A DNA stretch of 64,000 nucleotides, from NCBI RefSeq assembly GCF_013410405.1, contig NZ_JACCFK010000001.1, positions 2,170,001 to 2,234,000 on the forward strand, written 5' to 3'. The translations under genes and the position numbers were made by a program. Position 1 is the first letter of the stretch; each line of letters starts with the position of its first letter. Shown piece after piece: positions 5,244-21,682 of the stretch. Under the pieces are notes generated by a model. The model saw only the letters and a program-made list of their open reading frames with translations, was not told where the DNA came from and ran no database searches. Source of the DNA: Amycolatopsis endophytica. Lineage in GTDB: Bacteria > Actinomycetota > Actinomycetes > Mycobacteriales > Pseudonocardiaceae.

Positions 5244-5477
5244 TCACGACTCGGCCGTGCGGGCTTCCGCTTCCTCGACCGCCTCGCGGGTGTGCTCGCC
5301 GATCAGCGGCGCGTGTCGGCGGATGGCGACAGGGGGGCGACCGAACCGCGTCATGCCCGGGATCGCCCGGTAGGCCCCGGCCACCGGGTGAGTGGTCAGC
5401 GGCGGATCATCGACCGGATCCGGCAGGGTGGCCACGAGTCGCCGATCAGTGACATGCCCTTGACGTCGAGGATGCAC
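5244..5477 (-). pseudogene. Remnant of a class III CoA-transferase gene (C-terminal ~65 codons only)
   Basis: This reading frame encodes only the C-terminal tail of a CaiB/BaiF CoA-transferase. LVATLPDPVDDPPLTTHPVAGAY, RAIPGMTRF and IRRHAPLIGEHTREAVEEAE align residue for residue with the last ~65 residues of the intact gene at 6454-7653 (RVATLQDLLDDLPLATHPV...RRHAPLIGEHTRETFEEAE). Nothing corresponding to the preceding ~330 residues exists upstream, where only about 60 bases separate it from a promoter-like sequence. I infer an internal deletion that fused the promoter region to the 3' end. It lies 22 bases upstream of the GMC gene, in the same orientation. Confidence 0.72.
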
Positions 5478-5524
5478 GCCTTGCGCCGGCCAACCTCTTC
5501 GTCGGCCAATGCCACCGTATCTGC

Positions 5525-5566
5525 ACGCAAATACGTATACTAAAAGGCGTGCACGGTCAAGACGGG
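5525..5566 (-). promoter_or_regulatory. Promoter/operator-like sequence upstream of the CoA-transferase stump and GMC gene
   Basis: Read on the minus strand there is TTGACC, 15 bases, then TATACG, followed by GTATTTGCG. The stretch contains the palindromic core ATACGTAT and resembles, with different spacing, the TGCATAC-N7-TATA elements at 6393, 10627 and 19147. It is a candidate promoter with a diverged copy of the same operator. Confidence 0.4.
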
Positions 5567-5600: not shown

Positions 5601-6269
5601 TCAGGCCGGCCGGCGGCGGTGCCCGAGGCGGCGCACCACGATCTTCTCGGTCCCGGCGCGGTGCGCGTCGAGCTCCTTGAGCAGGCGCTTCGAGTCCTGT
5701 GCTCTCACCACGTCGATGATGGCCTTGTGCTCGGCGACGAGGCGCTGGGTGGTTTCCAGCTCGTACAGGTAGAGCGAGCGGTAGAAGTCGGACATGTACC
5801 ACAACCGTTGCAGCTCCTGACGCACGAGCGTCAGCGGAGAAGCGTCGAAGATCGCGAAGTGGAACTGCCGGTTCAGGCGCTGGAACTCATCAGGGTCCTG
5901 CGCCCTGGCGGCCGCCACCATCTCGGTGTGCAGCTTTCCCATGGCGGCCACGTCGATCCGGGAGAGATCGGCCGTCTTCACCAGCTCGGTCTCCAGCAGG
6001 CGGCGCATGAGATAGAGCTCGGCGAGGTCTTCGCTGTTGAACCGCGACACGGTGTAGCCGGTGTTCGACTTGTGCTCGACGATCCCTTCGGACTGCAGCC
6101 GCGACAGCGCCTCACGGACGGGGATACGGCTCACCCCCAACGCCTCCGCCAGGGCGGCCTGCTGCACCTTCTGGCCCGGCAGCAGTTCGCCGCTCAACAC
6201 CATCGAGCGGATCGCGGCAAGACACTTGTCGACCCCGGAGCCCGTCACGGGGTCGGTGCTCTTGCCCAT
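5601..6269 (-). CDS. GntR family transcriptional regulator, FadR subfamily with FCD domain
   Basis: 222 residues. A winged HTH occupies residues ~15-80 (LPGQKVQQAALAEALGVSRI, PVREALSRLQSEGIVEH, NTGYTVSRF). The C-terminal all-helical FCD domain follows, with likely metal/ligand residues in the RQFHFAIF and AEHKAIIDV segments. FCD-type GntR proteins usually repress catabolic operons and are released by an organic acid or acyl-CoA. The gene sits between the GMC gene and operon A and is divergent from the CoA-transferase at 6454. It is the obvious candidate to bind the repeated TGCATAC-N7-TATA(C/G) element at the heads of the neighbouring operons. A degenerate copy at 6317 upstream of its own start suggests autoregulation. 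Confidence 0.9.
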   Translation of the reverse strand: MGKSTDPVTGSGVDKCLAAIRSMVLSGELLPGQKVQQAALAEALGVSRIPVREALSRLQSEGIVEHKSNTGYTVSRFNSEDLAELYLMRRLLETELVKTADLSRIDVAAMGKLHTEMVAAARAQDPDEFQRLNRQFHFAIFDASPLTLVRQELQRLWYMSDFYRSLYLYELETTQRLVAEHKAIIDVVRAQDSKRLLKELDAHRAGTEKIVVRRLGHRRRPA

Positions 6270-6316
6270 GCGAACTCCTCACGAGACGGACCGTCGGCCG
6301 AAAGTGGATAAAACTT

Positions 6317-6335
6317 TGCATCCACATGTTACAGG
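6317..6335. promoter_or_regulatory. Weak copy of the putative GntR operator (autoregulation?)
   Basis: TGCATCC, 7 bases, ACAGG: the left arm differs by one base from the TGCATAC arm at the three strong sites and the right arm is poor. It lies about 50 bases upstream of the GntR start, where an autoregulatory site would be expected. Confidence 0.35.
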
Positions 6336-6382: not shown

Positions 6383-6412
6383 TGGACAGGAATGCATACA
6401 AAACTGTATAGT
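6383..6412 (+). promoter_or_regulatory. Promoter of operon A with embedded putative GntR operator
   Basis: TGGACA (6383-6388) and TATAGT (6407-6412), 18 bases apart, form a plausible promoter for the CoA-transferase operon. Between and overlapping them is TGCATAC (6393-6399), 7 bases, TATAG (6407-6411). It also contains ATACA-N4-TGTAT as an inverted repeat. The same element recurs at 10627 and 19147 with identical spacing. Confidence 0.6.
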
Positions 6413-6453
6413 TTCGTTCGAAGACCGGTGCGGAACCAGCAGTGGAGGCGAAT

Positions 6454-7653
6454 GTGCTCAGTGATGACCCCCAGGCCGGCCCCCGGGGATCTGCCGCCGG
6501 ACCGTTGCGCGGCATCCGGGTCCTGGACCTGACCCGGGTGATCATGGGTCCGCTCGCGACCCAGATCCTCGGCGACCAGGGCGCGGACGTCCTCATGGTC
6601 GAGGCGAACGACGGCGACACGAACCGGGTGATGGGGCCGGGTCCCCACCCGGAACTTTCCGGTATCGCGCTGAACCTGCTGCGCAACAAGCGCTCCGTCG
6701 GCCTCGACCTGAAGACGCCCGAAGGTGTGCTCGCGGTGCAGCGGCTTGCCGCGACCTGCGACGTCGTCGTCGCCACGATGCGGCCGGCCGCGCTCGAACG
6801 CCTGCACCTGGACTATTCGACGCTCTCGGCGCTGAAGCCCGACCTGATCTACTGCCAGGCACAGGGTTTCCCGCTGGACACCGCACGCGCGAACGATCCC
6901 GCCTACGACGACATCATCCAGGCCGCCAGCGGTGTCTCGGACATGATGGAACGAGTGTGGGGACAGCCCGCGCTGCTGCCGACGATCTTCACCGACAAGG
7001 TGTGCGGACTGGTCATCGCCCAGGCGGTCACCGCCGCGCTCGTACACCGCGAACGGACCGGCGAAGGTCAGCACGTCGAGGTTTCGATGCAGGAGGCGAC
7101 TGCCGCCTTCATGCTCGCCGAACACGGCAGTGGCGGGATCGCCGAACCACCGATCGCCTACCCCGGGACACCGGCCGCGGGCTATCCGCGCGTGCTGTCG
7201 GCGGAACGCCGTCCCCATCAGACGAAGGACGGCCAGATTCACCTGTTTCCCTACCTGCCGAAGCACTACGCCGCGATGTTCGCCGCCGCAGGGGTCCCTG
7301 ACGCCGATCGCGATCCGCGCTACGCCGACCGACGCGCGGCGCTGCGCAACTCCGACTCCCTCTACCGCGACATCCGCGCGATCGCTCCCGCTCGCACGAC
7401 CGACGAATGGCTGGAGTTCTGCGCGGCGACCGGTATCCCCGCGACCCGCGTCGCCACCCTCCAGGACCTGCTCGACGACCTGCCGCTCGCGACGCATCCG
7501 GTGTCCGGCTCCTACCGGGTGATCCCGCAGATGGCGCGCTTCTCCCGCACCCCCGGCACGCTCCGCCGTCATGCCCCGTTGATCGGCGAACACACCCGCG
7601 AAACCTTCGAAGAAGCCGAAGTTCCGACCGTGCGACCGGAGGCGCGCGGATGA
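6454..7653 (+). CDS. CaiB/BaiF class III CoA-transferase
   Basis: About 399 residues, full length for the family. The N-terminal LRGIRVLDLTRVIMGPLATQ and GDQGADVLMVE segments, the NLLRNKRSVGLDLKTPEG motif and GEGQHVEVSMQEA are diagnostic. The position of the catalytic Asp of formyl-CoA transferase (SMQD) is Glu here, as in some other branches. It would move CoA between a donor thioester and the free acid (or act as a racemase/hydrolase-type relative). I place the start at GTG 6454 because GGAGG (6444-6448) lies five bases before it; an in-frame GTG at 6442 is the alternative. It is the first gene of operon A and overlaps the next gene by 4 bases (ATGA). Confidence 0.88.
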   Translation: MLSDDPQAGPRGSAAGPLRGIRVLDLTRVIMGPLATQILGDQGADVLMVEANDGDTNRVMGPGPHPELSGIALNLLRNKRSVGLDLKTPEGVLAVQRLAATCDVVVATMRPAALERLHLDYSTLSALKPDLIYCQAQGFPLDTARANDPAYDDIIQAASGVSDMMERVWGQPALLPTIFTDKVCGLVIAQAVTAALVHRERTGEGQHVEVSMQEATAAFMLAEHGSGGIAEPPIAYPGTPAAGYPRVLSAERRPHQTKDGQIHLFPYLPKHYAAMFAAAGVPDADRDPRYADRRAALRNSDSLYRDIRAIAPARTTDEWLEFCAATGIPATRVATLQDLLDDLPLATHPVSGSYRVIPQMARFSRTPGTLRRHAPLIGEHTRETFEEAEVPTVRPEARG

Positions 7654-8774
7654 ACCTCGCCCCGACCGAACTGACCGGGGACGAACTGCGGTTGCAGTCG
7701 GAGGTCCGGTCCTTCCTCGACGAGCGCCTGCCCGCCGGCAGCTACCCGGTACAGCTCGGCATCGGCGGGTGCGACCCCGCCTTCTCCCGCGACCTGGCCC
7801 GGCGGGGCTGGGTCGGCATGGCCATCTCCCGGCAGTACGGCGGACACGGCCGTAGCGCCGTCGACCGCCTCGTCGTCGTCGAGCAGTTGCTGGCCCGCGG
7901 CGCTCCGGTCGCCTACCACTGGATCGCCGACCGGCAGAGCGGGCCGATGATCGAACGCCACGGATCCGAAGCGCAGAAACGGGAACTGCTGCCCGGCATC
8001 GCCCGTGGTGAGCTGTCGTTTTCCATCGGCATGAGTGAGCCCGACTCCGGATCGGACCTGGCTTCCCTGCGCTCGCGCGCGCAGTGGCGCAGCGACCGCT
8101 GGGTGCTGAACGGCACGAAGATCTGGACCACCGGCGCCGCACAGGCCACGCACATCCTCGGCCTGTTCCGGACCTCCGAAGACCGCTACGGCGGGCTCAC
8201 CCAGTTCATCGTCGGGTGCGACACCCCCGGCGTCACCATTTCCCCCATCGTCTTCATCGACGGGTCCAGCGAGTTCTGCGAGGTATCGTTCGAGGACGTC
8301 GAACTCGGTGACGAGCACCGGCTCGGTGAACCCGGCGCGGGCTGGGCCCAGAACACCGGTGAGCTCGTGCTCGAACGCGGCGGGGTGGATCGCTGGATGT
8401 CGATGTTCCCGGTCATCGAGCACTGGGCGAGCGAACTCGCCCCCGAGGACAGCGCGGCGCAGGCCGACCTCGGGACGATCACAGCACGGATGTGGGCCCT
8501 GCGCGGGCTGTCGCTGTCCATCGCCCGGCTCGTCGACGAGGGTGGGTCGCCCGTGACCGAGGCGGCCATGGTGAAGGAACTCGCCACCCGCTGGGAGGCC
8601 GATTGCGTCCGCCTCGTGGCGCGGCACCTCGGCCGGGCCCCGGACCCCACGTCACCCGATCCGTGGGAAGCACTGCTCGCCCGCGCCGTGCTCGTTTCGC
8701 CCTCATGGACCATCCGCGGCGGCACCAACGAGATCCTGCGTTCCGTCGTCGCGAAAGGTCTGGCCCGCCGATGA
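7650..8774 (+). CDS. Acyl-CoA dehydrogenase, large subunit of a two-gene enzyme (pair 1)
   Basis: 374 residues with the complete acyl-CoA dehydrogenase fold: FAD-contacting FSIGMSEPDSGSDLASL and KIWTTGAAQATHI, a probable catalytic-base glutamate in ELVLERGGVDRW, and the C-terminal TIRGGTNEILRSVVAKGLARR. It overlaps the CoA-transferase and the next gene by ATGA junctions. A full-length dehydrogenase immediately followed by a shorter divergent homologue is the pattern of heterotetrameric (alpha2beta2) enzymes such as FadE28-FadE29 of steroid degradation, which handle bulky or branched acyl-CoAs. The heteromer is inferred from this gene order. Confidence 0.9.
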   Translation: MNLAPTELTGDELRLQSEVRSFLDERLPAGSYPVQLGIGGCDPAFSRDLARRGWVGMAISRQYGGHGRSAVDRLVVVEQLLARGAPVAYHWIADRQSGPMIERHGSEAQKRELLPGIARGELSFSIGMSEPDSGSDLASLRSRAQWRSDRWVLNGTKIWTTGAAQATHILGLFRTSEDRYGGLTQFIVGCDTPGVTISPIVFIDGSSEFCEVSFEDVELGDEHRLGEPGAGWAQNTGELVLERGGVDRWMSMFPVIEHWASELAPEDSAAQADLGTITARMWALRGLSLSIARLVDEGGSPVTEAAMVKELATRWEADCVRLVARHLGRAPDPTSPDPWEALLARAVLVSPSWTIRGGTNEILRSVVAKGLARR

Positions 8775-9817
8775 CCGCAAGCCCTGATCCCGACCTCGCC
8801 GCCGGTGTGCGCGAGTTCTTCGCCGACCGCGCGGCCGAAGCGGCCGCCGACTTCGACCGGAGCGGCCGGTTCCCCCGCGAGCTGTGGGACGCTGCCGAAG
8901 ACCTCGGACTGACCCTGGTCGCGGTCGACGAGGCCCGAGGGGGCTCCGGCGGCTCGCTCACCGACCAGCTGACGGTCCTGGTGACGGCGGCGAGGTATGC
9001 CGCACCCCTGCCGCTCGCCGAAACGGCGCTCGCCGCGTACCTCCTCGCCACCGCCGGCGTCCCGGTGCCGAAGGGTCCGCTGACCGTCGTGCCGGGAAAC
9101 GCCCTCCGGCTGAGTGGCGGCACTCTGCACGGCGCGGCCCGTGACGTCGCGTGGGCGAGGACTGCCGGCTTGGTGGTCGCGCTGACGAACGACGACGAGG
9201 GCCGGGCCCGGGTCGTCGCCTTCGACCCTTCCGGGTGCGAACGCGAAAACGGCAGCGATGTGGCCGGCCTTCCCCGGGATCACCTCCGGGTCGAGGCCGA
9301 CGCGGTGGTCGACGCAGGCACCGAACTCACCCGGGCCGACCTGCGGGCCCGCGGTGCGCTCCTGCGGGCAGGCCAGATGGCCGGCGCGCTCGCCGCCACA
9401 CACTCGCTCACCAGCCGTTACGTCGAGGAACGAGTCCAGTTCGGCCGTCCGATCGGCCGATTCCAGGCCGTGCAGGCGCACACTGTGGCCATCGTCCAGG
9501 CCGCCGAGATCACCGCGATGAGCACGTGGCGGGCGGCCGCCGTCGCCGCCCGCCGCCCGGCCCGGTTCGAGGCGTTCGCGGCCAAGCTCGTCGCGAACGA
9601 AGCCGCGCGCACCGCGGTCCGAGCGGCCCACCAGGCGCACGGCGCGATCGGCATGACCCGCGAATACCCCCTGCACCTGCACACCCGGCGCCTCAACGCC
9701 TGGCAGCACGAATTCGGCACCGAGGGGGAGCTCGCCACCGCGATCGGCGCGGCTGTGGCGCCCGGTTCGTTTTCCCGCACGGTCTCCGACCACGACCCCG
9801 ACATCGAGGTGCCATGA
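8771..9817 (+). CDS. Acyl-CoA dehydrogenase, small subunit of a two-gene enzyme (pair 1)
   Basis: 348 residues, shorter and more divergent than its neighbour. The C-terminal helical domain is clear (RAGQMAGALAATHSLTSRYV, ERVQFGRPIGRFQAVQ, HQAHGAIGMTREYPLHLHTR). The middle beta domain is short and lacks the SEPDxGSD flavin motif of the large subunit. This matches the partner subunits of heteromeric actinobacterial acyl-CoA dehydrogenases, where FAD and substrate sites form between unlike chains. Start and stop overlap both neighbours by 4 bases. Alone it is probably inactive. Confidence 0.87.
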   Translation: MTASPDPDLAAGVREFFADRAAEAAADFDRSGRFPRELWDAAEDLGLTLVAVDEARGGSGGSLTDQLTVLVTAARYAAPLPLAETALAAYLLATAGVPVPKGPLTVVPGNALRLSGGTLHGAARDVAWARTAGLVVALTNDDEGRARVVAFDPSGCERENGSDVAGLPRDHLRVEADAVVDAGTELTRADLRARGALLRAGQMAGALAATHSLTSRYVEERVQFGRPIGRFQAVQAHTVAIVQAAEITAMSTWRAAAVAARRPARFEAFAAKLVANEAARTAVRAAHQAHGAIGMTREYPLHLHTRRLNAWQHEFGTEGELATAIGAAVAPGSFSRTVSDHDPDIEVP

Positions 9818-10581
9818 CTGACGACGTGACCATGGAGCGCACCGGCTTCGTCGCCGACATCGTGATCCACCGCGGTCCGGCGAACTTCTTCGACGCGGAC
9901 GTTCTCCGCCGGGTGGCCGATCTCGGCGAGCGCGTGTCCACCGAGGACGACATCCGCGTCATCGTGCTGAGCTCGGCCGGGAAGCACTTCTGCGCGGGCG
10001 CGGACTTCGGCTCCGGTTCGCTGGCGGACGACCGCGACCGCGCCGCCGCCGAGATCTACGAACACGGTGCGCGGTTGTTCGACCTGCCACTGCCCATCGT
10101 GGCCGCGGTCCAGGGCGCGGCCGTTGGCGGCGGGCTGGGTCTCGCATGCGCCGCCGATTTCCGGGTCGCATCCCCCGCCACCCGCTTCACCGCCAACTTC
10201 ACCGCGCTCGGCTTCCACCACGGCTTCGGCCTGTCGGTGACGCTGCCACGCATCGTCGGCCCGCAGCGCGCGCTCGACATGCTGCTCACCGGACGGCGCG
10301 TCGACGGAACGGAAGCCCTGCGGACGGGGCTGGCCGACCGCCTCGTCGAGCCGGGCGACGAGCGCACCGGAGCCCTGGCTCTGGCCGAGGACATCGCGGC
10401 CCTGGCACCGCTCGCCGTGCGGTCGTGCAGGCGGACGCTCCGTGCGGAACTTGCCGCTGAGGTACGCGCCGCACTCGCGCACGAACTCGAGGAGCAGCGC
10501 CGGTTGTGGCGCACCGAAGACAGCCGCATCGGCATCGCCGCGGCCCGCGCCCGGACGGAACCGGTGTTCACCGGTCGGTGA
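9814..10581 (+). CDS. Enoyl-CoA hydratase/isomerase family (crotonase) protein with atypical active site
   Basis: 255 residues. The CoA-binding and oxyanion-hole elements are intact: GKHFCAGADF near 57-65 and GAAVGGGLGLA near 101-111. The two acid-base glutamates of classical hydratases are not: the position in GGGCE is Gly109, and the position in FGQPE is Phe129 (RFTANFTALGF). It is therefore unlikely to be an ordinary enoyl-CoA hydratase; crotonase relatives lacking these residues act as isomerases, hydrolases, or C-C bond forming or breaking enzymes. It ends operon A and overlaps the small dehydrogenase subunit by ATGA. The MaoC protein at 19805 may supply the hydration step instead. Confidence 0.85.
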   Translation: MTDDVTMERTGFVADIVIHRGPANFFDADVLRRVADLGERVSTEDDIRVIVLSSAGKHFCAGADFGSGSLADDRDRAAAEIYEHGARLFDLPLPIVAAVQGAAVGGGLGLACAADFRVASPATRFTANFTALGFHHGFGLSVTLPRIVGPQRALDMLLTGRRVDGTEALRTGLADRLVEPGDERTGALALAEDIAALAPLAVRSCRRTLRAELAAEVRAALAHELEEQRRLWRTEDSRIGIAAARARTEPVFTGR

Positions 10582-10626
10582 ACCCTCGCGGCGGGCGCGG
10601 TGGAGGCGGACCTGTCGCCTAGATTT

Positions 10627-10646
10627 TGCATACGTCTTGATATACA
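10627..10646 (+). promoter_or_regulatory. Putative GntR operator overlapping the promoter of operon B
   Basis: TGCATAC (10627-10633), 7 bases, TATAC (10641-10645). TATACA at 10641-10646 is a plausible -10 box, about 45 bases before the GTG of the acyl-CoA dehydrogenase at 10691. It is identical in arm sequence and spacing to the elements at 6393 and 19147. Confidence 0.6.
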
Positions 10647-10690
10647 GTCGGCCCGAGCCCGGGACGACGTGAGCTAAGGGGCTGATCGAC

Positions 10691-11854
10691 GTGGATCTGG
10701 AGTTCGACACCCGGAACGAGCAGTTCCGCCGGGAGGTGTCGGCCTGGCTCGACGAAAACGCCCCGGCCGGGCGACTTTCTCCACCGGCCACCGCGGAAGG
10801 GCTGAGGCAACACCTGGCGTGGGAGCGTCGCCTGTTCGAGGCCGGCTACGCCGCACCGGGTTGGCCGCGGCGGTTCGGCGGCCTCGGGCTGGACCTGTGG
10901 GGCGAGACCGTTTTCGACGAGGAGTACGTCCGCCGGCGACTGCCCGAGCGGCTGAACAAGATGGCGCTCATTCACGGCGCACGCACCGTGCTGGTGCACG
11001 GAACCGAGGAGCAGCAACGGAACTGGCTGCCCGGCGTGCTCGACTGCTCGGACATCTGGTGCCAGGGCTTCTCCGAACCCGACGCGGGCAGTGACCTGGC
11101 GAGCCTGCGTACCACGGGCCGTCTCGACGGAGACGAAATCGTCCTCAACGGACAGAAGACGTGGACGTCCAACGGAGCCATCGCCACGCACATGTACGCG
11201 CTCGTGCGCACCGACCCCGCCGCACCGAAACATCACGGGATCAGCTTCCTCGTTTTCGACCTGCGAACGCCAGGCGTCGAGATCCGGCCGATGCGCCAGC
11301 TTCACGGCCACTCGGGATTCGCCGAGGTGTTCTTCACCGACGTCCGCGTCCCGCTGACGAGCGTGGTCGGTGAGCTCAACGACGGGTGGCGCGTGGCGCA
11401 GACGGCGCTGCGGCTCGAACGGGGGTCTGCCCGAGGCAGCCATACGCGACTCGTGGCGGCCCTGGACGCCCTGACCGAGGCCGCCGCGAGAGCCGGAGCC
11501 GATCGGGGACTGCGAGAGCGTGTCGGCTCCCTGCGCGCCTGGGTGTTCGCCTACGTCCGGGCCACTTACGCGCTGATCGACACGGTCGACCGCGGCGGCG
11601 ACGACGGAGTGGTCGCCAGCGTGAACAAACTCGGCCTGTCCGAGATCCAGACCGCGATCCACGATCTGTGGCTCGAAGTGCTCGGCGACGAGGCCGAGCT
11701 GGTCGACGAGCTCGGCCCGGACGGTGAGCTGCTCGGCCTGCGCCGAGACTACTGGCACTCACGCGCCCAGGAGATCTTCGCCGGCAGCAGCGAAATCCAG
11801 CGCAACATCATCGCCGAACGAGGTCTCGGCCTTCCCCGTGAGGTGTCCCGATGA
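10691..11854 (+). CDS. Acyl-CoA dehydrogenase, large subunit of a two-gene enzyme (pair 2)
   Basis: 387 residues. FAD/substrate motifs are complete: WCQGFSEPDAGSDLASLRTT, QKTWTSNGAIATHMYALVRT, a glutamate in ALRLERGSARGSH, and the C-terminal EIFAGSSEIQRNIIAERGLGLP. It oxidises an acyl-CoA to the 2,3-enoyl-CoA, passing electrons to ETF. It opens operon B just downstream of a GntR-type element. It overlaps the next dehydrogenase gene by ATGA, repeating the large/small subunit order of operon A, so the island holds two heteromeric dehydrogenases, presumably for successive cycles or different intermediates. GTG start; AAGGGG lies upstream. Confidence 0.9.
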   Translation: MDLEFDTRNEQFRREVSAWLDENAPAGRLSPPATAEGLRQHLAWERRLFEAGYAAPGWPRRFGGLGLDLWGETVFDEEYVRRRLPERLNKMALIHGARTVLVHGTEEQQRNWLPGVLDCSDIWCQGFSEPDAGSDLASLRTTGRLDGDEIVLNGQKTWTSNGAIATHMYALVRTDPAAPKHHGISFLVFDLRTPGVEIRPMRQLHGHSGFAEVFFTDVRVPLTSVVGELNDGWRVAQTALRLERGSARGSHTRLVAALDALTEAAARAGADRGLRERVGSLRAWVFAYVRATYALIDTVDRGGDDGVVASVNKLGLSEIQTAIHDLWLEVLGDEAELVDELGPDGELLGLRRDYWHSRAQEIFAGSSEIQRNIIAERGLGLPREVSR

Positions 11855-12879
11855 ACACCGCGTTCTCCCCTGAACAAGACGAACTGCGCACCAGTGTCCG
11901 GCGGCTGTTCGAGAACGTGGTGCCGGCCGCGGTACTGCGTCAGCTGTGGGAAACCGAGACCGGGCGGAGCCCGCAGGTGTGGAAGGGGCTCGCCGAGATC
12001 GGCGTACCCGCGCTGCTCGTGCCCGAGGAGTACGAGGGGCTCGGTGCCGACGAGCTCGACCTGTTTTTCGTACTGGAGGAGGCCGGCCGAGCCGCCTTGC
12101 CCGACGCGATCCTCGAATCGTGCGTGCTCGCTCCCATCCTGCTCGCGGGGTCCACCGCCGATGGGCTCAAGCGGCGGTGGCTGCCCGCGCTGGCCACCGG
12201 TGAGGCTCGGGCGACCGTCGCGTTCGACGGCGCGCGAGCGGTGCCGGACGCGCACCTGAGCGATCTCGTCCTCGTCGTCGACGGAGACCAGGTCGTCGCC
12301 TACGAGCGTGGAGAGGTCACCGTGCGGCCGGTCCCGTCGATGGATCCCTCGCGCCGGCCCGCCTCCGTCACGGCGCGGGCCGGGAGCGGTGTCAGGGTCG
12401 ACGGTGCCCCGGTGGCCCGGGCACGAGCAGCCCGGCTGGCCGGCTCGGCGGTCCTGCTGGGCGGTGTGGGATCCCGGCTGGTCGAGTTCGCGGTCGCCTA
12501 CGCGAAAGTCCGGGAGCAGTTCGGCCGGCCGATCGGGTCGTTCCAGGCGATCAAGCACCAGCTCGCCACCGCGCACAGCCGCAACGAGCTCGCCCGGCAC
12601 GCCGCGGTGGGCGCGATGTACGACCTGGCGCACCGGGCCGGTTCGAGCTCCGACACCGCCGTGCTCGCGCACGTGTGCGCGCTCGAAGCCGAGCGCGAAA
12701 GCAACCGGGTCAGCCTCCAAGTACACGGCGGCATCGGTTTCACCTGGGAACACGACCTGCAGATCTGGCTCAAGCACGGCAAATCACTGGAACTCGGGTA
12801 CGGCACCTGGCGCGAGACGGCCTACGCCGCCGGTGCCGGCACCGTCCTCTCCGGACGAAGTGAAGGAGGAACACGATGA
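11851..12879 (+). CDS. Acyl-CoA dehydrogenase, small subunit of a two-gene enzyme (pair 2)
   Basis: 342 residues. The N-terminal helical domain (SPEQDELRTSVRRLFENVVP), IGVPALLVPEEYEGLG and the C-terminal domain (KVREQFGRPIGSFQAIKHQL, VSLQVHGGIGFTWEHDLQIW) are acyl-CoA dehydrogenase signatures. The central flavin-binding beta domain is reduced and lacks a SEPDxGSD motif. It is the expected partner of the preceding gene in an alpha2beta2 enzyme; heteromerisation is inferred from gene order and the 4-base overlaps on both sides. Confidence 0.87.
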   Translation: MNTAFSPEQDELRTSVRRLFENVVPAAVLRQLWETETGRSPQVWKGLAEIGVPALLVPEEYEGLGADELDLFFVLEEAGRAALPDAILESCVLAPILLAGSTADGLKRRWLPALATGEARATVAFDGARAVPDAHLSDLVLVVDGDQVVAYERGEVTVRPVPSMDPSRRPASVTARAGSGVRVDGAPVARARAARLAGSAVLLGGVGSRLVEFAVAYAKVREQFGRPIGSFQAIKHQLATAHSRNELARHAAVGAMYDLAHRAGSSSDTAVLAHVCALEAERESNRVSLQVHGGIGFTWEHDLQIWLKHGKSLELGYGTWRETAYAAGAGTVLSGRSEGGTR

Positions 12880-13637
12880 ACGGCAATGGCAGGCTGACCG
12901 GCCGCCGCGCCGTCGTGACCGGGGCGGGCCAGGGCATCGGCCGCGCCGTCGCGGAGCGGTTCGCCCGGGAGGGCGCGAAGGTCACCGTCGTCGACGTCAA
13001 CGAGACGGGCCTCAAGGAGGTCGTGTCCGGTATCGCGGCCGAAGGCGGCGAAGCGCTGGCTGTCACCTGTGACGTGACCCGGCGGGCCGAGGTCTTCGAG
13101 GCCGCAGCGCAGGCCGCGGCGGCGTTCGGTCCCGTCGACGTCCTGGCCTGCATCGCGGGAATCACCCGGCCGGCGATGCTCGGGAAGATGACCGAAGAGG
13201 ATTGGGACGCGGTGCTCGACACGCATCTGAAGGGGAGCCTGTTCTGGGTACAGGCGGTGCTCGACCCGATGCGCGAAGCGGCCGCCGGGAAGATCATCCT
13301 CACCACTTCGGCAGCCGGGCTGATCGGCTCGATCGGCCAGGTCAACTACGCGGTCGCCAAAGCGGGGATGCTCGGCATGACGCGGTCTGCCGCCCGCGAG
13401 CTGGCCCGGTACGGGATCACCGTCAACGCGGTGGCGCCGGCGGCATCGACGCCGATGACTCACACCATCCGCACCGACGAGCGCTTCGCGGACAAGTTCC
13501 TCGACGAGGTTCCCCTGCGTCGCTGGGCCGAACCCGAAGAGGTCGCCGGTACTTACGTCCACCTCGCCAGCCCGGACGCCGACTACGTGACCGGCCAGGT
13601 CCTCTCGGTGGACGGCGGCCGCGCGATGGTGCGCTGA
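12876..13637 (+). CDS. SDR family NAD(P)-dependent oxidoreductase (3-hydroxyacyl-CoA dehydrogenase/FabG-like)
   Basis: 253 residues, classical short-chain dehydrogenase. The cofactor motif TGAGQGIG is at 15-22 with an acidic residue after strand 2 (VVDVNE), suggesting NAD preference. The catalytic triad is Ser145 (TTSAAG), Tyr158 and Lys162 (NYAVAKAG). It likely oxidises the hydroxyl formed by hydration of an enoyl-CoA, or another ring hydroxyl. It overlaps the dehydrogenase subunit by ATGA. GGAGG lies just before the ATG (GAAGGAGGAACACG). Confidence 0.9.
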   Translation: MNGNGRLTGRRAVVTGAGQGIGRAVAERFAREGAKVTVVDVNETGLKEVVSGIAAEGGEALAVTCDVTRRAEVFEAAAQAAAAFGPVDVLACIAGITRPAMLGKMTEEDWDAVLDTHLKGSLFWVQAVLDPMREAAAGKIILTTSAAGLIGSIGQVNYAVAKAGMLGMTRSAARELARYGITVNAVAPAASTPMTHTIRTDERFADKFLDEVPLRRWAEPEEVAGTYVHLASPDADYVTGQVLSVDGGRAMVR

Positions 13638-13677
13638 CCGCACTCGCGATACCCGAATACGGAGGTCAACGACGACC

Positions 13678-16128
13678 ATGAGCGCACCAGTCTCCCCGCT
13701 CCGCCCGGACGACCGAGCCGAGCACATCCCCCGCCGCCGGCTGTCGCGAGTGGACGGACCGCTGCGGCGGGACGGCGACGCGGTCGCATCCGGGCAGGCG
13801 CACTACCTCGACGACGTGGTGCTGCCGGGCATGCTGCACGCGGCGATCCTCCGCAGCCCGCACCCGCACGCGCGGATCCGGTCCGTGGACACCTCGGCAG
13901 CCGAGCGCTGCGCCGGTGTGCGGGTCGCCGTCTCCGGCGAAGACTTGCGCGGCCAGTCCGATCCGGTCCCCCACTACTTCGACCCGGGACTGTTCGGGTT
14001 CAACACCGCGGACTTCTTCGCGTTGGCGGTGGACAAGGTGAGGTGGGTGGGCGAGCCGGTCGCCGCGGTGGTCGCCGACTCGCTCGCCAACGCCGAAGCC
14101 GCCCTCGCCGCCATCGTCGTGGACTACGACGTCCTGCCGTCGGTCATCGAGGCCGAAGACGCGCTGGCGGACGACGCGGTCCGCGTGTTCGACCACTGGG
14201 ACCGCAACCTGCTCGGTGTCCTGCCCTTCGCGCACGGCGACGCGGCAGGACGACTTGCGGGCGCACCGCACCGGGTCCGGGAACGCATCACCATCGGCCG
14301 TCACCAGGGGGTGCCGCTCGAGCCGCGGGGGTACATCGGCTCGTGGGAGCGGCGGGGACGCGGACGTCTGGAGCTGTGGGCCTCGACGCAGAGTCCCCAC
14401 CTGGTGCGCACGGGCTTGGCCCGCATCCTGCACCTTCCGGAAGAGCGGATCCGGGTCATCGCCCCGCGGATGGGCGGCGGGTTCGGGCACAAGTTCAACG
14501 GCTACTCCGAGGAACTGCTGGTCTGCCTGCTGAGCAGGCTCGTCGGCGCGCCGGTCAAGTGGGTCGAGACCCGGGCGGACTCGCTCCTGGTCGGCGCCCG
14601 CGAGTTCGCCCACGACATCGAGGCCGGATTCGACGACGACGGCCTGCTGGTGGCGTTCACCGTCAGGATGATCGCCAACATCGGCTGCCTGGCTTCGTGG
14701 GGCGGCTGGGGAATGGCGTTCATGGCCGGACTGACCTTCCCCGGCCCGTACGTGTGCGAGAACTACTCGATCGAGACCCTGCCCGTGATCACCAACAAAG
14801 CGCCGTGGAACGGCTACCGCGGGTACGGGAAGGAACAGGCGGCGGTCGTCCTGGAACGCGTGATGGACGTCATCGCCGCGCGGCTGGACCTCGATCCGGC
14901 CGAGGTCCGGCGCCGGAACATGCGGCCCGCCGACAGTTTTCCGCTGTGGGCGGCGGGCAAGCACCTCGACTCGGGGGACCACCGGGGCGCATTGGACAAG
15001 GTCGTGCGTCTCTCGCGGTATCACGAACTGCGCCGGCAGCGTGACGAAGACACGGGCGCCGCCCGGCTTCGCGGGGTCGGCATCGGGTTCGAGCTGACTC
15101 CGGAAGGCGGGGAGCTGCTCGGCACGTCGGTGCGCGGGCACGACACGTCCACGGTGCGCGTGCACCCCGGCGGGACCGTCACGGTCCTCACCGGCGTGAC
15201 GAGCCCGGGCACCGGCAACGAGACGTCCATCGCCTACCTCGTGGCCCGCGAACTCGGCATCGGCCTCGACCAGGTCGAGGTCGTGCAAGGCGACACGGAC
15301 CGGTGCCCCTTCGGCTACGGGAACTTTTCCAGCCGGTCGTTGAACAGCGGTGGTGCCGCCGCGGTGCTCGCCGCACGGGAGATCCGCGGGCGCCTGGTCG
15401 CGGTGGCCGCCGGGGAGTTCGGCTGCGACGCGAGCGACGTGGCCGCACGCGACGGCCGGCTGGTCAACGTGCGCGACGAGGACCAGTCCGTGCCCTTCGC
15501 CGAGCTCGTGCTGCGGGTGTACCAGACCGGTTCCAGCGACCCCGGCGTCGGCCAGGCCCTGCTCGAAGCCACCAGGGTCGAAGGGCCGCACAACTACCAC
15601 CACGATCCGGGCGAAAGCGGCCTCACCAACGCTTACCCGATGTACTCGTCCACGTCCGCCGTCGCGGTCGTCGAGGTGGACCCCGAAACCGGGGTCGTGA
15701 CGCTTGCCGACCTGTTCGCGGTCGGCGACTGCGGGACGATCGTCAACCACAATTTCGTCAACAGCCAGCTGTACGGGGCGCTCGCCCAGGGCGTCGGCGG
15801 CGCGCTGTGGGAGCACAGCCCCTACGACGACGGCACCGGCGAACCGCTGGCGCGGACGTTCAAGCACTACCTGCTGCCCCGGGCACCCGACCTCCCGGCC
15901 ATGGTCGTGGACCACCAGGAGACCCCTTCTCCGTTCACGCTCATGGGCACCAAGGGGGCCGGTGAGAGCGGGGTCGGCGCGGCGATGGCCGCGGTGGTCA
16001 ACGCCGTCAACGACGCCTTGCGGCCGGTCGGTGCGTCCGTCACGGATCTCCCCCTCGATCCGCCGCGCGTCCTTCGCGCGATCGGCGAAGCGAGGACCCG
16101 GCAATCAGCTGAGAGGCGGGACGCGTGA
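13678..16128 (+). CDS. Molybdenum hydroxylase (xanthine dehydrogenase family), molybdopterin-binding large subunit
   Basis: 816 residues, normal for the large subunit. The N-terminal aldehyde-oxidase a/b hammerhead domain (YLDDVVLPGMLHAAILRSPHPHARI, VRWVGEPVAAVVADS) is followed by the Mo-cofactor domain with APRMGGGFGHKF, APWNGYRGYGKEQ and the active-site Glu763 in MGTKGAGESG. Such enzymes hydroxylate aromatic, heterocyclic or aldehyde carbons with water, or reductively dehydroxylate aryl-CoA. The substrate class cannot be fixed from motifs. FAD and 2Fe-2S subunits follow with 4-base overlaps, so the whole CoxL/M/S-type enzyme is encoded. No cofactor-maturation gene is nearby. Confidence 0.9.
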   Translation: MSAPVSPLRPDDRAEHIPRRRLSRVDGPLRRDGDAVASGQAHYLDDVVLPGMLHAAILRSPHPHARIRSVDTSAAERCAGVRVAVSGEDLRGQSDPVPHYFDPGLFGFNTADFFALAVDKVRWVGEPVAAVVADSLANAEAALAAIVVDYDVLPSVIEAEDALADDAVRVFDHWDRNLLGVLPFAHGDAAGRLAGAPHRVRERITIGRHQGVPLEPRGYIGSWERRGRGRLELWASTQSPHLVRTGLARILHLPEERIRVIAPRMGGGFGHKFNGYSEELLVCLLSRLVGAPVKWVETRADSLLVGAREFAHDIEAGFDDDGLLVAFTVRMIANIGCLASWGGWGMAFMAGLTFPGPYVCENYSIETLPVITNKAPWNGYRGYGKEQAAVVLERVMDVIAARLDLDPAEVRRRNMRPADSFPLWAAGKHLDSGDHRGALDKVVRLSRYHELRRQRDEDTGAARLRGVGIGFELTPEGGELLGTSVRGHDTSTVRVHPGGTVTVLTGVTSPGTGNETSIAYLVARELGIGLDQVEVVQGDTDRCPFGYGNFSSRSLNSGGAAAVLAAREIRGRLVAVAAGEFGCDASDVAARDGRLVNVRDEDQSVPFAELVLRVYQTGSSDPGVGQALLEATRVEGPHNYHHDPGESGLTNAYPMYSSTSAVAVVEVDPETGVVTLADLFAVGDCGTIVNHNFVNSQLYGALAQGVGGALWEHSPYDDGTGEPLARTFKHYLLPRAPDLPAMVVDHQETPSPFTLMGTKGAGESGVGAAMAAVVNAVNDALRPVGASVTDLPLDPPRVLRAIGEARTRQSAERRDA

Positions 16129-16940
16129 TTCCCGAGACCCTGCGGTACCACCGGCCGGGCTCCCTGCCGGAAGCGACCGCGATCCTCGCCGAGCATGCCG
16201 GTGACATCCGGGTGCTCGGCGGGGGCACGGCGCTCATCCCCTGCCTGATCCGCGGCGAGGTCACCGTCGGCCACGTCCTCGACCTGCGCGCTCTCGGCCT
16301 CGGCGTGATCCGCGAGGTGCCCGGCGGCGTCGAGATCGGCGCGATGGTCACCTACGCGGACGTCCTCGGCTCGGCGGTCGTCGCCGAGCGGGTGCCGCTG
16401 GTCGCGCGGGTCGCCCGTGGCATCACCGGCGGCAGGCAGATCACCCAGCAGGGCACGCTGGTCGGTTCGGCCTGCTTCAGCTTCCCCACCAGCGACGCGC
16501 CGGGCATGTTCGCCGCGCTGCGGGCCCGTTTCCGGATCGCGGGTCCGTCCGGAACGCGCGAAGTGCCCGCCGCCGACTTCTTCGTCGACGCCCACCGAGT
16601 CGACCTCGGCGAAGCGGAACTGGTCACCGGCGTGGTGCTTCCGTCGACGGCGCGCGGCGGCTACTGCAAGATCAAGCACGCGAGCGGCTCGTGGCCGATC
16701 GCGACCGCCGCCGCGGTCTTCGACGACGCGTCGCCCGGGCGGCTACGGGTCGCGCTGGGCGCGATCCAGGCGGTGCCGCTGGTCGTGAGCGTCGACGATC
16801 CGGGACAGCTGGCCGAGCGGGTGCGCGAGGCCGTCGACGCACCGTGGAGCGACGTCCTGGCCCCCGCGGACTACCGGACCCGGGTCGCGCCGGTCGTGGC
16901 GCGCCGCGCGGTCGACGAACTGCTGGAGGTTTTGCCATGA
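16125..16940 (+). CDS. Molybdenum hydroxylase, FAD-binding medium subunit
   Basis: 271 residues. The FAD motif IRVLGGGTALIPCLIRGEV near residues 27-45 and the second motif TGGRQITQQGTLVGSACFSFPTSD (equivalent to the usual IRN-xGTxGG) identify a CoxM-type subunit. It transfers electrons between the 2Fe-2S subunit and its acceptor. ATGA-type overlaps with the large subunit upstream and the iron-sulfur subunit downstream indicate stoichiometric co-translation. Confidence 0.9.
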   Translation: MIPETLRYHRPGSLPEATAILAEHAGDIRVLGGGTALIPCLIRGEVTVGHVLDLRALGLGVIREVPGGVEIGAMVTYADVLGSAVVAERVPLVARVARGITGGRQITQQGTLVGSACFSFPTSDAPGMFAALRARFRIAGPSGTREVPAADFFVDAHRVDLGEAELVTGVVLPSTARGGYCKIKHASGSWPIATAAAVFDDASPGRLRVALGAIQAVPLVVSVDDPGQLAERVREAVDAPWSDVLAPADYRTRVAPVVARRAVDELLEVLP

Positions 16941-17455
16941 CCACGTCGAACGACTCCGCGCCGCACCGGCGCCGGATCACGCTCACCGTCAACGGGCGGC
17001 CGGAAGACGTCGAGATCACCGACGGCGAACTGCTCGTCGACGTGCTTCGGCACCGGTTGCGGCTGACCGGGACACACGCCGGCTGTTACAACGGCGACTG
17101 CGGAGCCTGCACGGTCCGGGTCGGCGGGACGATCGCCAAGTCGTGCCTCCTGCTGGCGGCCAGCGTGGACGGCGCCGCGATCACCACGCTCGAGGGGTTC
17201 TCCGGCACCGAAGGACTCAGTGAGCTGCAGCAGGCATTGTGGGAACGCGACGCGTTCCAGTGCGGATTCTGCATCGCCGGTCACGTGTTCGCGCTCGACG
17301 ACATGCTGACGCGCACGCCCGACCCGACGGAATCGGACGTCCGCGACGCGTTGATCGGAAATCTCTGCCGGTGCACCGGCTACGTCAACCTCGTCGAAGC
17401 GGTCCTGGACATCGCGGAGCGCCGACGCGAGCTCGGCGCCGCGGAAGCTGGGTGA
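16937..17455 (+). CDS. Molybdenum hydroxylase, 2Fe-2S small subunit
   Basis: 172 residues, CoxS type. Cys50, Cys55, Cys58 and Cys70 (CYNGDCGACT...C) form the plant-ferredoxin-type cluster site. Cys109, Cys112, Cys144 and Cys146 (CGFC...CRC) form the second cluster site next to the molybdopterin. All eight ligands are present. It is the last gene of operon B and converges on the thiolase-like gene. Confidence 0.93.
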   Translation: MTTSNDSAPHRRRITLTVNGRPEDVEITDGELLVDVLRHRLRLTGTHAGCYNGDCGACTVRVGGTIAKSCLLLAASVDGAAITTLEGFSGTEGLSELQQALWERDAFQCGFCIAGHVFALDDMLTRTPDPTESDVRDALIGNLCRCTGYVNLVEAVLDIAERRRELGAAEAG

Positions 17456-17564
17456 CGGGGGCGGCTACGCCAGGTCGAAGGGCGCGGGTCAGGCCGAAGA
17501 GGTAGGACGTGCCGCCGGCCGCGTGATTCGCCTCGGCCAGCTGTACCGGGGCCGGCCAGGCACG

Positions 17565-18722
17565 TCACTGCGTCGTTTCGTCCCCCAGGAGCGCGGTGAC
17601 CTGGGTGGACAGCACACCGCCGTTTCCGTGCGCGAGGGCGACGTGCGCATCGGGAACCTGGCGTTCGCCGCACTCGCCGCGCAGCTGCCGTGCGGCCTCG
17701 ATGACCAGGAAGATCCCGAACATCCCGGGGTGGCCGTAGGACAGCCCGCCGCCGGAGGTGTTGACCGCCAGCCGGCCACCCGGGGCTATCGCGCCGTCGG
17801 CCACGAAGGCGCCGCCCTCACCCTTCGCGCAGAAACCGAGATCTTCGAGGAACAAGATCGTGTTGATGGTGAACGCGTCGTAGAGTTCGGCAACGTCCAC
17901 ATCGGAGGGCTGCAGACCGGCCGCGGCGAACGCGCGCTCGCCGGACGCCCTGGCGGCGGTGGTCGTCAGGTCCGGCATCTGCGAGATATGCCGGTGCGCG
18001 TGGCCTTCGGCGCAGCCGAGAACGTACACCGGTGGCTTGCGCAGTGTCTTCGCGCGTGCCTTCGACGTGACCAGCACCGCGCCACCGCCGTCGGTCACCA
18101 GGCAGCAGTCTCGCACGGTGAGCGGGCTCGAGATCATCGGTGAGGCGAGGACGTCCGCCACGGTGAGCGGACCACGTTTGAAGGCCGCCGGGTTGAGTTG
18201 CGCCCACTTCCGGGCGGCGACGGCGACCTCTGCCAGCTGCTCGCGGGTCGTGCCGAACTCGTGCATGTGGCGGGCCGCCGCGAGCGCGTACGCGGTCACG
18301 GGCATCCGGGGGCTGAACGGTGCTTCATAGGACTTCACCAGAGCCGAGCCCGACGTGACGAGGCCCGATGACGACGATCGCTGGGTGCTTCCGTAGGTGA
18401 TCAGGGCGACTTCGCAGAGTCCTGCCTCGATCGCGAGTGCGGCGTGTCGCAGGTAGCCGACGAACGAAGCGCCACCGATCGCGGTGGAGTCGGTGTACGT
18501 CGGCCGGATGCCCAGGTATTCGGCGACGGCCGAGGGCGGGAAGTCGAAGAAGGCCGAATGGCACAGGACGCCGTCGATATCGCTTTTGTCCAGGCCCGCG
18601 TCGGCGAGCGCCCGGGTGGTGGCCTGTCCGATCAGATCCAGGGCCGACAGGCCGGGGCCGACTTCACCGAGGTCGGACTCGGCGACACCGACGATCGCGG
18701 CGGGTTCGCGGGTATCCGTCAT
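17565..18722 (-). CDS. Thiolase-fold aldolase (Ltp2-like), lacking the thiolase cysteine
   Basis: 385 residues of SCP2-thiolase type. The nucleophilic cysteine expected around residue 84 is missing (STAIGGASFVGY). The later thiolase histidine region reads GGGLSYGHPGMFG, placing Tyr329 before GHP, and Tyr281 occurs in AELYDAF. From established work on Ltp2-ChsH2 of steroid side-chain degradation, a thiolase-fold protein without the cysteine and with two active-site tyrosines acts as a retro-aldolase and needs a DUF35 partner; exactly such a partner gene precedes this one. I therefore predict cleavage of a beta-hydroxyacyl-CoA into an aldehyde or ketone plus a shorter acyl-CoA, not thiolysis. 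The ATG directly abuts the stop of the DUF35 gene. Confidence 0.83.
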   Translation of the reverse strand: MTDTREPAAIVGVAESDLGEVGPGLSALDLIGQATTRALADAGLDKSDIDGVLCHSAFFDFPPSAVAEYLGIRPTYTDSTAIGGASFVGYLRHAALAIEAGLCEVALITYGSTQRSSSSGLVTSGSALVKSYEAPFSPRMPVTAYALAAARHMHEFGTTREQLAEVAVAARKWAQLNPAAFKRGPLTVADVLASPMISSPLTVRDCCLVTDGGGAVLVTSKARAKTLRKPPVYVLGCAEGHAHRHISQMPDLTTTAARASGERAFAAAGLQPSDVDVAELYDAFTINTILFLEDLGFCAKGEGGAFVADGAIAPGGRLAVNTSGGGLSYGHPGMFGIFLVIEAARQLRGECGERQVPDAHVALAHGNGGVLSTQVTALLGDETTQ

Positions 18723-19151
18723 TCAGGCCTCCGGGGTGAACAGGGCGAGCGGCGTTTCGTCGCGGGTTTCCACCTGGACGCGCACCCGCATCCCGATCGC
18801 GAAGGCGTCCGCGGGCGCGCCGACGAGGTTGGTCATGATTCGCGGCCCGTCGTCGAGGTCGATCAGTGCGACGACACGGGGCTCTGCATTCCTCAGGTGC
18901 ACCACCGAGAGGGAGTACACGACTCCGCCGGGAGCCGCACGCAGCCACGAGATCCCGGTCGCGCCGCAGTGCGGGCACAGCACCCGCGGCGGAAATGAGG
19001 TCCTCCGGCAGGCGCGGCACCACGGGAGGGCGAACACGCCGAGGCCGAGCAGAGCTTCATAGGCGGTCTCCGGAGGGACGTCGCCGACCAGCTGCTTCAC
19101 ATCGAGCAGCCGCGCATCGCCGATCTCCTCGGGCAGCCGTTGACTATGCAT
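18723..19151 (-). CDS. OB-fold/DUF35 zinc-ribbon protein, partner of the thiolase-fold aldolase
   Basis: 142 residues. A rubredoxin-like zinc ribbon (CRACRR...VLCPHCG) at about 52-70 precedes an OB-fold (GGVVYSLSVVHLRN, VVALIDLDDGPRIMTNLVG). This is the ChsH2 C-terminal/DUF35 architecture that binds thiolase-fold aldolases. The ATG lies inside the TGCATAC-N7-TATAC element, 11 bases after a TATAAT, so the transcript may be leaderless; a start further inside is the alternative. Transcribed divergently from operon C. Confidence 0.82.
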   Translation of the reverse strand: MHSQRLPEEIGDARLLDVKQLVGDVPPETAYEALLGLGVFALPWCRACRRTSFPPRVLCPHCGATGISWLRAAPGGVVYSLSVVHLRNAEPRVVALIDLDDGPRIMTNLVGAPADAFAIGMRVRVQVETRDETPLALFTPEA

Positions 19152-19168
19152 ACATTTGATTATACCTT
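19140..19168. promoter_or_regulatory. Bidirectional promoter with putative GntR operator
   Basis: Plus strand: TTGACT (19140-19145), 15 bases, TATACC (19161-19166). Minus strand: TATAAT reading toward the DUF35 gene. Embedded is TGCATAC (19147-19153), 7 bases, TATAC (19161-19165), identical in spacing to 6393 and 10627. One site would control both the aldolase pair and operon C. Confidence 0.6.
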
Positions 19169-19229: not shown

Positions 19230-19805
19230 ATGACCGAACACCAGCCGTCCGAACGCCGCCTCGCTCCGATCCGGAGGATCGTCACGGGGGTCACGAGCGA
19301 GGGCCGCTCCACTGTGGTCAGTGACGGTCCGTCCGCGTTCACGTTCGCCTTCCCCGGGATTCCGGACTACGGAGCCACCGATCTGTGGCGTACCGCGGTC
19401 CCCGCCGATGCGGACGACCCCGAGGAGCCCTGCTTCACACCCATCCGGATGGGGCCGCCGAGCGGAGGAGTCGTCTTCCGGATCACCCACTTCCCGCCGG
19501 ATGAGCTCTTCCTCGACGGCTTCGACAGGTCCGCGGCCTTCTCCGCCGTCCGCGGCGGGGAGCACGTCACCGCGGAATCCGACGTCCGCAACCCCACCAT
19601 GCACCGCACCGACACCGTCGACTTCGCGATCGTCATCAGCGGGGAGATCTACGCGCTGCTGGACGAGACCGAAGTGAAGATGGGGCCGGGTGACACGCTG
19701 ATCCAGCGGGGCACCGTGCACGGCTGGAGCAACCGGTCCACCGAAGACTGCCTCGTGGCGTTCGTTCTGGTCGATGCGGCGACGTCCGGCGACGAGGTCG
19801 GCTGA
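19230..19805 (+). CDS. Cupin domain protein (paralogue 1)
   Basis: 191 residues. The C-terminal half is a small cupin barrel (MHRTDTVDFAIVISGEIYAL, MGPGDTLIQRGTVHGWSNRS) with His/Glu residues suited to bind a metal. The N-terminal half is a conserved arm (LAPIRRIVTG, SDGPSAFTFAFPGIPDYGATDLWRT). A second copy at 21098-21682 shares both halves. Function is unknown; related small cupins in catabolic clusters are isomerases, dioxygenases or ligand-binding proteins. Start chosen at 19230 to match the second copy, although the frame is open further upstream into the promoter. First gene of operon C. Confidence 0.8.
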   Translation: MTEHQPSERRLAPIRRIVTGVTSEGRSTVVSDGPSAFTFAFPGIPDYGATDLWRTAVPADADDPEEPCFTPIRMGPPSGGVVFRITHFPPDELFLDGFDRSAAFSAVRGGEHVTAESDVRNPTMHRTDTVDFAIVISGEIYALLDETEVKMGPGDTLIQRGTVHGWSNRSTEDCLVAFVLVDAATSGDEVG

Positions 19806-20272
19806 TGGTCGTCGTCTCAGGGTTGCAGGGACTGCTCGACCGGGCAGGCCAGGACCTCGGCGCCAGCGGATGGCACGAACTCCCGCAGCACGACGTCGAC
19901 GCTTTCGCCGACGTCACCCGTGACCACCAGTGGATCCACGTCGATCCCGCGCGGGCCGCAGCGAGCCCGTTCGGCGGCACGATCGTGCACGGTTACTTCA
20001 CGCTGGCGCTGCTGCCGATGCTGCACGCGGAGGTCTTCACGGTCGCCGACGTCGCACACGGGCTGAACTACGGCCTCGACCGCGTCCGTTTTCCCGCTCC
20101 CGCGCCGGTCGGCAGCAAGATCCGCGCGCACGTCACGCTGGCGAGCGCGAAGGAGGCCGGCCACGGCGTGCAGGTGAAACTCGAGACCACCGTCGAAACT
20201 GACGCCGGCAGCAAGCCGGTGTGCGTCGCCGAGTCGCTCGTCCGCTACTACGACAAGAAGGCCGCATCGTGA
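19805..20272 (+). CDS. MaoC-like hot-dog enoyl-CoA hydratase
   Basis: 155 residues, single hot-dog domain. The hydratase motif with catalytic Asp and His is FADVTRDHQWIHVDPARA (residues ~38-55), followed by FGGTIVHGYFTLALLPML. It would hydrate a 2-enoyl-CoA in the (R) configuration, the step the atypical crotonase at 9814 probably cannot do. The start ATG shares one base with the cupin stop (TGATG). Confidence 0.88.
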   Translation: MVVVSGLQGLLDRAGQDLGASGWHELPQHDVDAFADVTRDHQWIHVDPARAAASPFGGTIVHGYFTLALLPMLHAEVFTVADVAHGLNYGLDRVRFPAPAPVGSKIRAHVTLASAKEAGHGVQVKLETTVETDAGSKPVCVAESLVRYYDKKAAS

Positions 20273-21111: not shown

Positions 21112-21682
21112 ACGAAATTCCGACCGGACACTGGCGCCGGTGCGCCGGGTCGTGACGGGCCACGACGAATCAGGCCGGTCGGTTGTGCTCAGTGACGGCT
21201 TTTCCCCGTACACCATGACCTTTCCGGGCGTGCCCGACTACGGCCAGACCGATTTGTGGCGGACCGGGGTGCCTGCCGACAACGCGACATTCGGGGAATC
21301 CTGTGAAAATCCGACGATGGCCCCGCCGGATGGCGGGGTGGTGTTCCGGGTGGTGCAGATCCCGCCCGACCACCTGTTCCTCGCGGACTTCGACCGCGAC
21401 GCCATGTTCGCCGGACTTCCGGACGGCGAGCACGCCGTCGGCGACGGCGACGTGCACAACGCGACCATGCACCGGACCAGGAGCGTGGACTTCGCGGTGG
21501 TGATCGACGGTGAAGTGCACGCGGTACTCGAAGACGGCGAGGTGCTGTTGCGCCAGGGTGACACGCTGATCCAGCGCGGCACCCTGCACGGCTGGAGCAA
21601 CCGCACGGACGCGAACTGCCAGGTCGCGTTCGTCCTGGTGGATGCCAAGCCGGCGGACGCCGGTGAGGAGGGGCAGCCGTGA
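21098..21682 (+). CDS. Cupin domain protein (paralogue 2)
   Basis: 194 residues, homologous along its length to the cupin at 19230: LAPVRRVVTGHDESGRSVVLSDGF, FPGVPDYGQTDLWRTGVPAD, HRTRSVDFAVVIDGEVHAVL and GDTLIQRGTLHGWSNR. The GTG start is preceded by GGAAGGAGG at six bases and lies 14 bases inside the luciferase-like gene. Two cupins bracketing a MaoC and an oxidoreductase suggest they act on related intermediates or form a heteromer. Confidence 0.82.
   Translation: MTTPERNSDRTLAPVRRVVTGHDESGRSVVLSDGFSPYTMTFPGVPDYGQTDLWRTGVPADNATFGESCENPTMAPPDGGVVFRVVQIPPDHLFLADFDRDAMFAGLPDGEHAVGDGDVHNATMHRTRSVDFAVVIDGEVHAVLEDGEVLLRQGDTLIQRGTLHGWSNRTDANCQVAFVLVDAKPADAGEEGQP

Follow-up and report, generated by a model that had tools for sequence, protein, structure and literature searches.

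The question raised by this locus is which protein reads a short DNA word that recurs at the heads of three catabolic operons, and what that protein does there. The window, by which we mean the whole stretch of 64,000 nucleotides of Amycolatopsis endophytica that was analysed, has a GC content of 70%. An earlier note on it had pointed out the word TGCATAC-N7-TATA(C/G), and exact copies are indeed found at 6393–6411, 10627–10645 and 19147–19165, all on the forward strand. They lie in promoter positions, as claimed, one before each of operons A, B and C (Table 1), and the third also covers the promoter of the divergent OB/thiolase pair, which is taken here to be the 'aldolase pair' of that note.

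Table 1 Candidate operators and genes of the cluster, in window coordinates
Feature	Position	Strand	Remarks
GMC oxidoreductase gene	3701–5221	−	Pfam; target status from position only
CaiB remnant	5265–5435	−	57 C-terminal residues still recognisable; lies behind operator D
Operator D (candidate)	5522–5554	−	GCACGC-N6-GTATAC-N6-GCGTGC palindrome
GntR/FCD regulator gene	5601–6269	−	222 aa; presumed repressor; Pfam
Auto-operator of GntR gene (candidate)	6304–6325	+	GGATAA-N6-GCATCC; weak
Operator A (candidate)	6392–6413	+	Exact pattern; overlaps operon A −10
Operon A	6442–10581	+	CaiB CoA-transferase 6442–7653; ACAD1 7650–8774; ACAD2 8771–9817; enoyl-CoA hydratase (ECH) 9814–10581
Operator B (candidate)	10626–10647	+	Exact pattern; near-identical copy before ACAD3 in A. 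pithecellobii
Operon B	10691–17455	+	Acyl-CoA dehydrogenases ACAD3 10691–11854 and ACAD4 11851–12879; SDR 12876–13637; three-subunit molybdenum hydroxylase: large 13678–16128, FAD subunit 16125–16940, FeS subunit 16937–17455
Divergent OB/thiolase pair	17565–19151	−	Pfam; thiolase-like gene 17565–18722; OB-fold/ChsH2-like gene 18723–19151, ATG inside operator C
Operator C (candidate)	19146–19167	+	Exact pattern; within OB/operon C divergon
Operon C	19230–24212	+	Six genes, some starts picked by eye: cupin 19230–19805; MaoC 19805–20272; LLM oxidoreductase about 20269–21111; cupin about 21098–21682; acyl-CoA ligase 21679–23247; FAA hydrolase 23244–24212

Adjacent genes of operon A share four-base overlaps. 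The gene set says only that CoA-dependent β-oxidation of some carboxylic acid is involved, and the PDB matches for ACAD3, the thiolase and the cupin do not name the substrate. Elsewhere in the window (33596–36067), a gene for a PknG-like protein kinase with rubredoxin, kinase and TPR domains lies behind a solute-binding-protein gene.

The earlier note had proposed a scan of the genome with its 19-base pattern. The 7,197,368 bases scanned (two contigs) contain three exact matches, and these are the three operon heads themselves, so that all three copies of the exact word are in the cluster. Allowing one mismatch adds a single match (C1:4816004, where an argininosuccinate-synthase-like gene has its 5′ end), and freeing the spacer to 0–20 bases yields four matches, three of which have exactly 7. 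The exact word is present in three of 200 family genomes, this one included, with one isolated match in each of the other two; two isolated matches in 199 other genomes is about the level of the reversed-pattern control, which gave three in the 200. In the window, five matches are found with up to two mismatches, compared with a mean of 0.42 and a maximum of 3 in 100 dinucleotide shuffles, none of which had five. Three copies within 13 kb, set against the genome and family counts, are therefore far beyond chance, and the own-genome, family and free-spacer counts rule out an origin by chance or as a common genomic word. This applies to the stricter word. In the same genome TGCAYRC-N7-TATAS matches only the three exact sites and the palindrome at 5522–5554, whereas the looser two-box pattern GYATAC-N6-RTATRS, with up to one mismatch, has 20 matches against 31 for its reversed control. 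The looser pattern is thus not enriched or rare outside the cluster, and genome-wide only the stricter word is special.

Alignment of the sites shows that the word is correct but incomplete. The sites have the form GYATAC-N6-GTATRC, with two boxes separated by six bases (12 bp box to box), and TGCATAC-N7-TATA corresponds to the first box and most of the second. Each box forms a GT-N2-AC palindrome like those of the FadR subfamily. The two are about equally strong over 23 sites (mean 5.18 and 5.23 of 6), although these sites were hand-chosen and the two main peaks are therefore partly built in. The matrices referred to below derive from 11 sites, picked after inspection. A three-box array with 12-bp steps was rejected as a general rule: the mean box score is 2.17 at −12 and 2.08 at +24, near the background of about 1.5–2.1, so that a third box is sporadic, as at site D. 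The same genome has two GTATAC-N6-GTATAG-like elements 28 bp apart in the divergon that separates a TetR gene from the gene of an EamA-type transporter (G000:C1:2893581–2893626; L028 about 6582–6627). They resemble FCD boxes but probably serve that TetR protein as its operator, and the box shape is thus not exclusive to FCD proteins.

Sites of this kind have been described. FadR-subfamily sites are reported as GT-N2/3-AC palindromes, often with an additional box 7–12 nt from the centre (PMC4494728), and the present sites have the GT-N2-AC palindrome of UxuR, GntR, HypR and PrpR as well as such an additional box (Suvorova et al., 2015, PMC4494728). In that description the additional box is a weaker half-site, whereas here the boxes are about equal. 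NanR-type regulators, as cited there, also have several GGTATA-like boxes under an FCD protein, but these are direct repeats TGGTATAW with short spacing rather than near-palindromic boxes at 12 bp (PMC4494728). The boxes also resemble ATGTATACAT, the 10-bp operator of Atu1419, a VanR-group FCD/GntR protein of Agrobacterium fabrum described as the repressor of a catabolic cluster, with operators that overlap −10 elements; ATGTATACAT is the operator in the Atu1419 crystal structures, in which Arg45 contacts an essential G (PMC7797058). On the basis of that description, Atu1419 and the GntR protein here have in common the FCD domain, the Asn/His metal site, an aligned Arg and multiple boxes per regulon. 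However, the Atu1419 boxes are 109–190 bp apart and bridged by looping, compared with 12 bp here (PMC7797058), and Atu1419 is a distant homologue (E 3.7e-14) from a different pathway.

The regulator encoded beside the operons has an N-terminal GntR winged helix and a C-terminal FCD domain (Pfam, 8.6e-17 and 4.8e-18). Its recognition residues Arg48 and Arg52 are the same in all 13 aligned homologues, and Arg48 aligns with Arg45 of Atu1419. Among the FCD metal ligands, His137, His181 and His203 are invariant in the same 13 and Asn133 is found in at least 90%; Asn133 and His137 align with Asn137 and His141 of Atu1419, His181 and His203 being assigned by spacing only. GT-N2/3-AC boxes are present and conserved at the candidate target promoters. 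The closest named GntR is that of A. ultiminotia (95%). Orthologues are uncommon, with nine in 100 relatives at E ≤ 1e-40 and two in 397 genomes of the order at E ≤ 1e-48, both counts including this one. Literature searches found no described regulon for the protein, and a scan of 20 ORFs from 3.7 to 24.2 kb gave no second regulator domain.

The positions of the sites are informative. At operon A the site lies within a promoter-like sequence TGGACA-N18-TATAGT (6383–6412; 10 of 12 positions match). Operator C lies between TTGACT (19140–19145) and TACCTT (19163–19168) of operon C, and on the other strand it covers both the −10 (TATAAT) and the start codon of the OB gene; both promoters were assigned by eye. 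This start codon, at 19151, is the only in-frame ATG near the 5′ end of the gene. The N-terminus MHSQ is common to A. pithecellobii, and MH to the more distant genome G062. In these three genomes TATAAT, TATATT or TATACT lies exactly 7 bases before the OB ATG, and OB start codons also fall within the operator at 18445 of L022 and 12256 of L026. These sequences suggest that the OB mRNA may be leaderless, with −10 and start codon both inside the operator. The cupin ATG of A. pithecellobii is six bases after its −10; the cupin of the window has a longer leader.

Two elements around the regulator gene extend this picture. The earlier note had overlooked two copies with two mismatches, at 5522–5540 (+) and 5535–5553 (−), which overlap as one palindrome, here called site D. 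In its minus register (5533–5554) it scores 22.5 bits with the window-free matrix, just below site A (23.3) and above 20.6, the maximum over 60 simulated 64-kb windows. Its layout is that of site C, TTGACC-GT-GCACGC-N6-GTATAC as against TTGACT-AT-GCATAC-N6-TTATAC. The CaiB remnant behind it is identical to residues 337–393 of the intact CaiB at 40 of 57 residues (70%), and the GMC oxidoreductase gene is a possible further target. The second element is the degenerate copy noted earlier at 6317, before the GntR gene. It has the two-box N6 geometry and is found in the same place in A. pithecellobii, but it is weak: the best register, GGATAAAACTTTGCATCC (6306–6323), scores 11.7 bits with the same matrix, compared with 23.3–31.2 for sites A–C. 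It may serve auto-regulation.

The comparison with relatives covered two of the same genus, A. pithecellobii (G014; L005 and L022/L011 are one contig, counted once) and Amycolatopsis sp. GM8 (G007), together with Rhodococcus and more distant genomes; an alphaproteobacterial locus (L009, 24% identity) was excluded from the site analysis. Identity of the GntR protein is 82% in A. pithecellobii, 64% and 55% for the two GM8 copies, 56–57% in three Rhodococcus loci (L006–L008) and 47% in G062. Genome-wide, TGYATMC-N7-TATAB has four matches in A. endophytica (the three sites and C1:4816004), three in A. pithecellobii, two in GM8, one in G062 and none in G006. The three in A. pithecellobii lie one each before the counterparts of operons A, B and C. 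There operon A (CaiB 83%, ACAD1 86%, ACAD2 75%, ECH 76%) is not beside the GntR gene but on the same contig at a distance of about 31 kb, and it is still headed by TGCATACAAAAAAGTATAG; the sites thus travel with the operons and not with the regulator gene. In all three Rhodococcus loci a matrix based solely on sites A, B and C of the window has its top match just before the orthologous operon, ACAD1-ACAD2-ECH-GntR, centred about 50–55 bp before ACAD1, with sequences like GGTATACATTTTTGTATACG. These copies are near-symmetric (6–7 of 9 core pairs), and box 1 of the R. erythropolis NBRC 15567 copy contains a gap of 2 bases. The single match in the 5.0 Mb of G062 lies in the cluster's OB|CaiB divergon, and is also the best matrix match. 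Conversely, a matrix built on eight sites found in relatives places C, A, B and D first in the window, in that order.

One of the seven relative-locus tests failed, at locus L024 of GM8, where the best match of the window-only matrix (19602) is not the head of the orthologous operon and the boxes at the ACAD1 head score 9.9 bits. At L025 the CaiB-head site is not among the four best matches of that matrix. GM8 is mixed overall, with pattern sites at CaiB and an aldehyde dehydrogenase gene and further candidates by matrix. Sites and regulator occur together in A. pithecellobii, G062 and the three Rhodococcus loci, and in part in GM8, with L024 as the exception; next to homologues of 38–42% identity (3.6-kb loci) the boxes are weak or different. 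Two Rhodococcus plasmid GntR matches (39–41%, in different neighbourhoods where annotated) and a Pseudonocardia plasmid ACAD match beside an IclR gene were judged not orthologous. A. pithecellobii has extra candidate sites at an SDR gene, a periplasmic-binding-protein gene and a second molybdenum hydroxylase set, so regulon content varies between species, and with the candidates at other genes in GM8 this means that the regulon need not equal one pathway. The second set (L031, 1086–6099) comprises molybdenum hydroxylase, cupin and SDR genes, and a separate two-box candidate belonging to it lies near 6209.

The proposal of a single local regulon is thus supported by comparison, in that sites follow GntR orthologues in Amycolatopsis, Rhodococcus and one further genome. 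Its left boundary at 5.5 kb is not: site D lies ahead of the CaiB remnant and the GMC gene, and the regulon therefore probably starts nearer 3.7 kb. From the sequence evidence, one nearby regulator very probably controls the neighbouring breakdown operons together. From the rarity, position and conservation of the sites, we infer (with a probability of about 0.83) that the word is the operator core of the neighbouring GntR/FCD protein, acting by ligand-released repression of operons A, B, C and OB/thiolase, and probably of the CaiB-remnant/GMC unit.

Three other explanations were considered. The sites might be bound by another protein, such as the MmyB-like XRE protein encoded at 2799–3677 or an unlinked factor, the GntR neighbour being coincidental. 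The MmyB-like gene adjoins the region, in GM8 a candidate site precedes the gene of its homologue (40%) by about 30 bp, and the TetR divergon shows that similar boxes occur elsewhere in this genome; however, tblastn found no MmyB-like homologue in the stretches searched from A. pithecellobii (L022, L023, L031), Rhodococcus (L006–L008) and G062 (L026), all of which have sites and a GntR orthologue, and we consider this explanation improbable. Slightly less probable still is that the GntR protein binds the candidate sites as an activator, or as activator and repressor alike. Some FCD proteins are reported to activate, for example CitO (PMC4746285), but the sites lie over the −10 or start codon, and not upstream of −35. 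Least probable by some way is a core-promoter type shared through one sigma factor: TATA(C/G) does overlap the likely −10 at each site, but the 14 bp between halves (start to start) is too short for a plain −35/−10 promoter, a word found three times in 7.2 Mb, and twice in the 199 other genomes, is too rare for a general one, the near-symmetric Rhodococcus copies speak against it, and no specialised ECF sigma factor was seen among the ORFs examined.

Under repression by the GntR/FCD protein, each operator would consist of two GYATAC/GTATRC boxes, one face-shifted turn (12 bp) apart, lying over the core promoter and mostly its −10. When the effector is absent the protein would sit on these boxes and deny RNA polymerase access to operons A, B and C and to the divergent OB/thiolase pair, most likely by steric block of the −10, and the CaiB-remnant/GMC unit would probably also be blocked. 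A small carboxylic acid that binds to the FCD metal site is the presumed effector; it would release the protein, and the CoA-ester β-oxidation set would be induced jointly. Much more tentatively, and rather doubtfully, a dimer of FCD dimers may read the two adjacent, nearly equal 10-bp boxes as a unit, such that one operator, lying over both opposing −10 elements, shuts both promoters of the OB/thiolase divergon and hides the leaderless start, the operator having moved with its operons as these were reshuffled among actinobacteria.

This is gene control of an ordinary kind. The analysis gives the GntR/FCD protein a candidate operator and target list, and indicates which CoA-ester degradation genes would be switched together. 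It also provides a clear example of the architecture with an extra box, which Suvorova et al. described as awaiting experimental study (PMC4494728), and one in which operators stay with their operons when the operons move.
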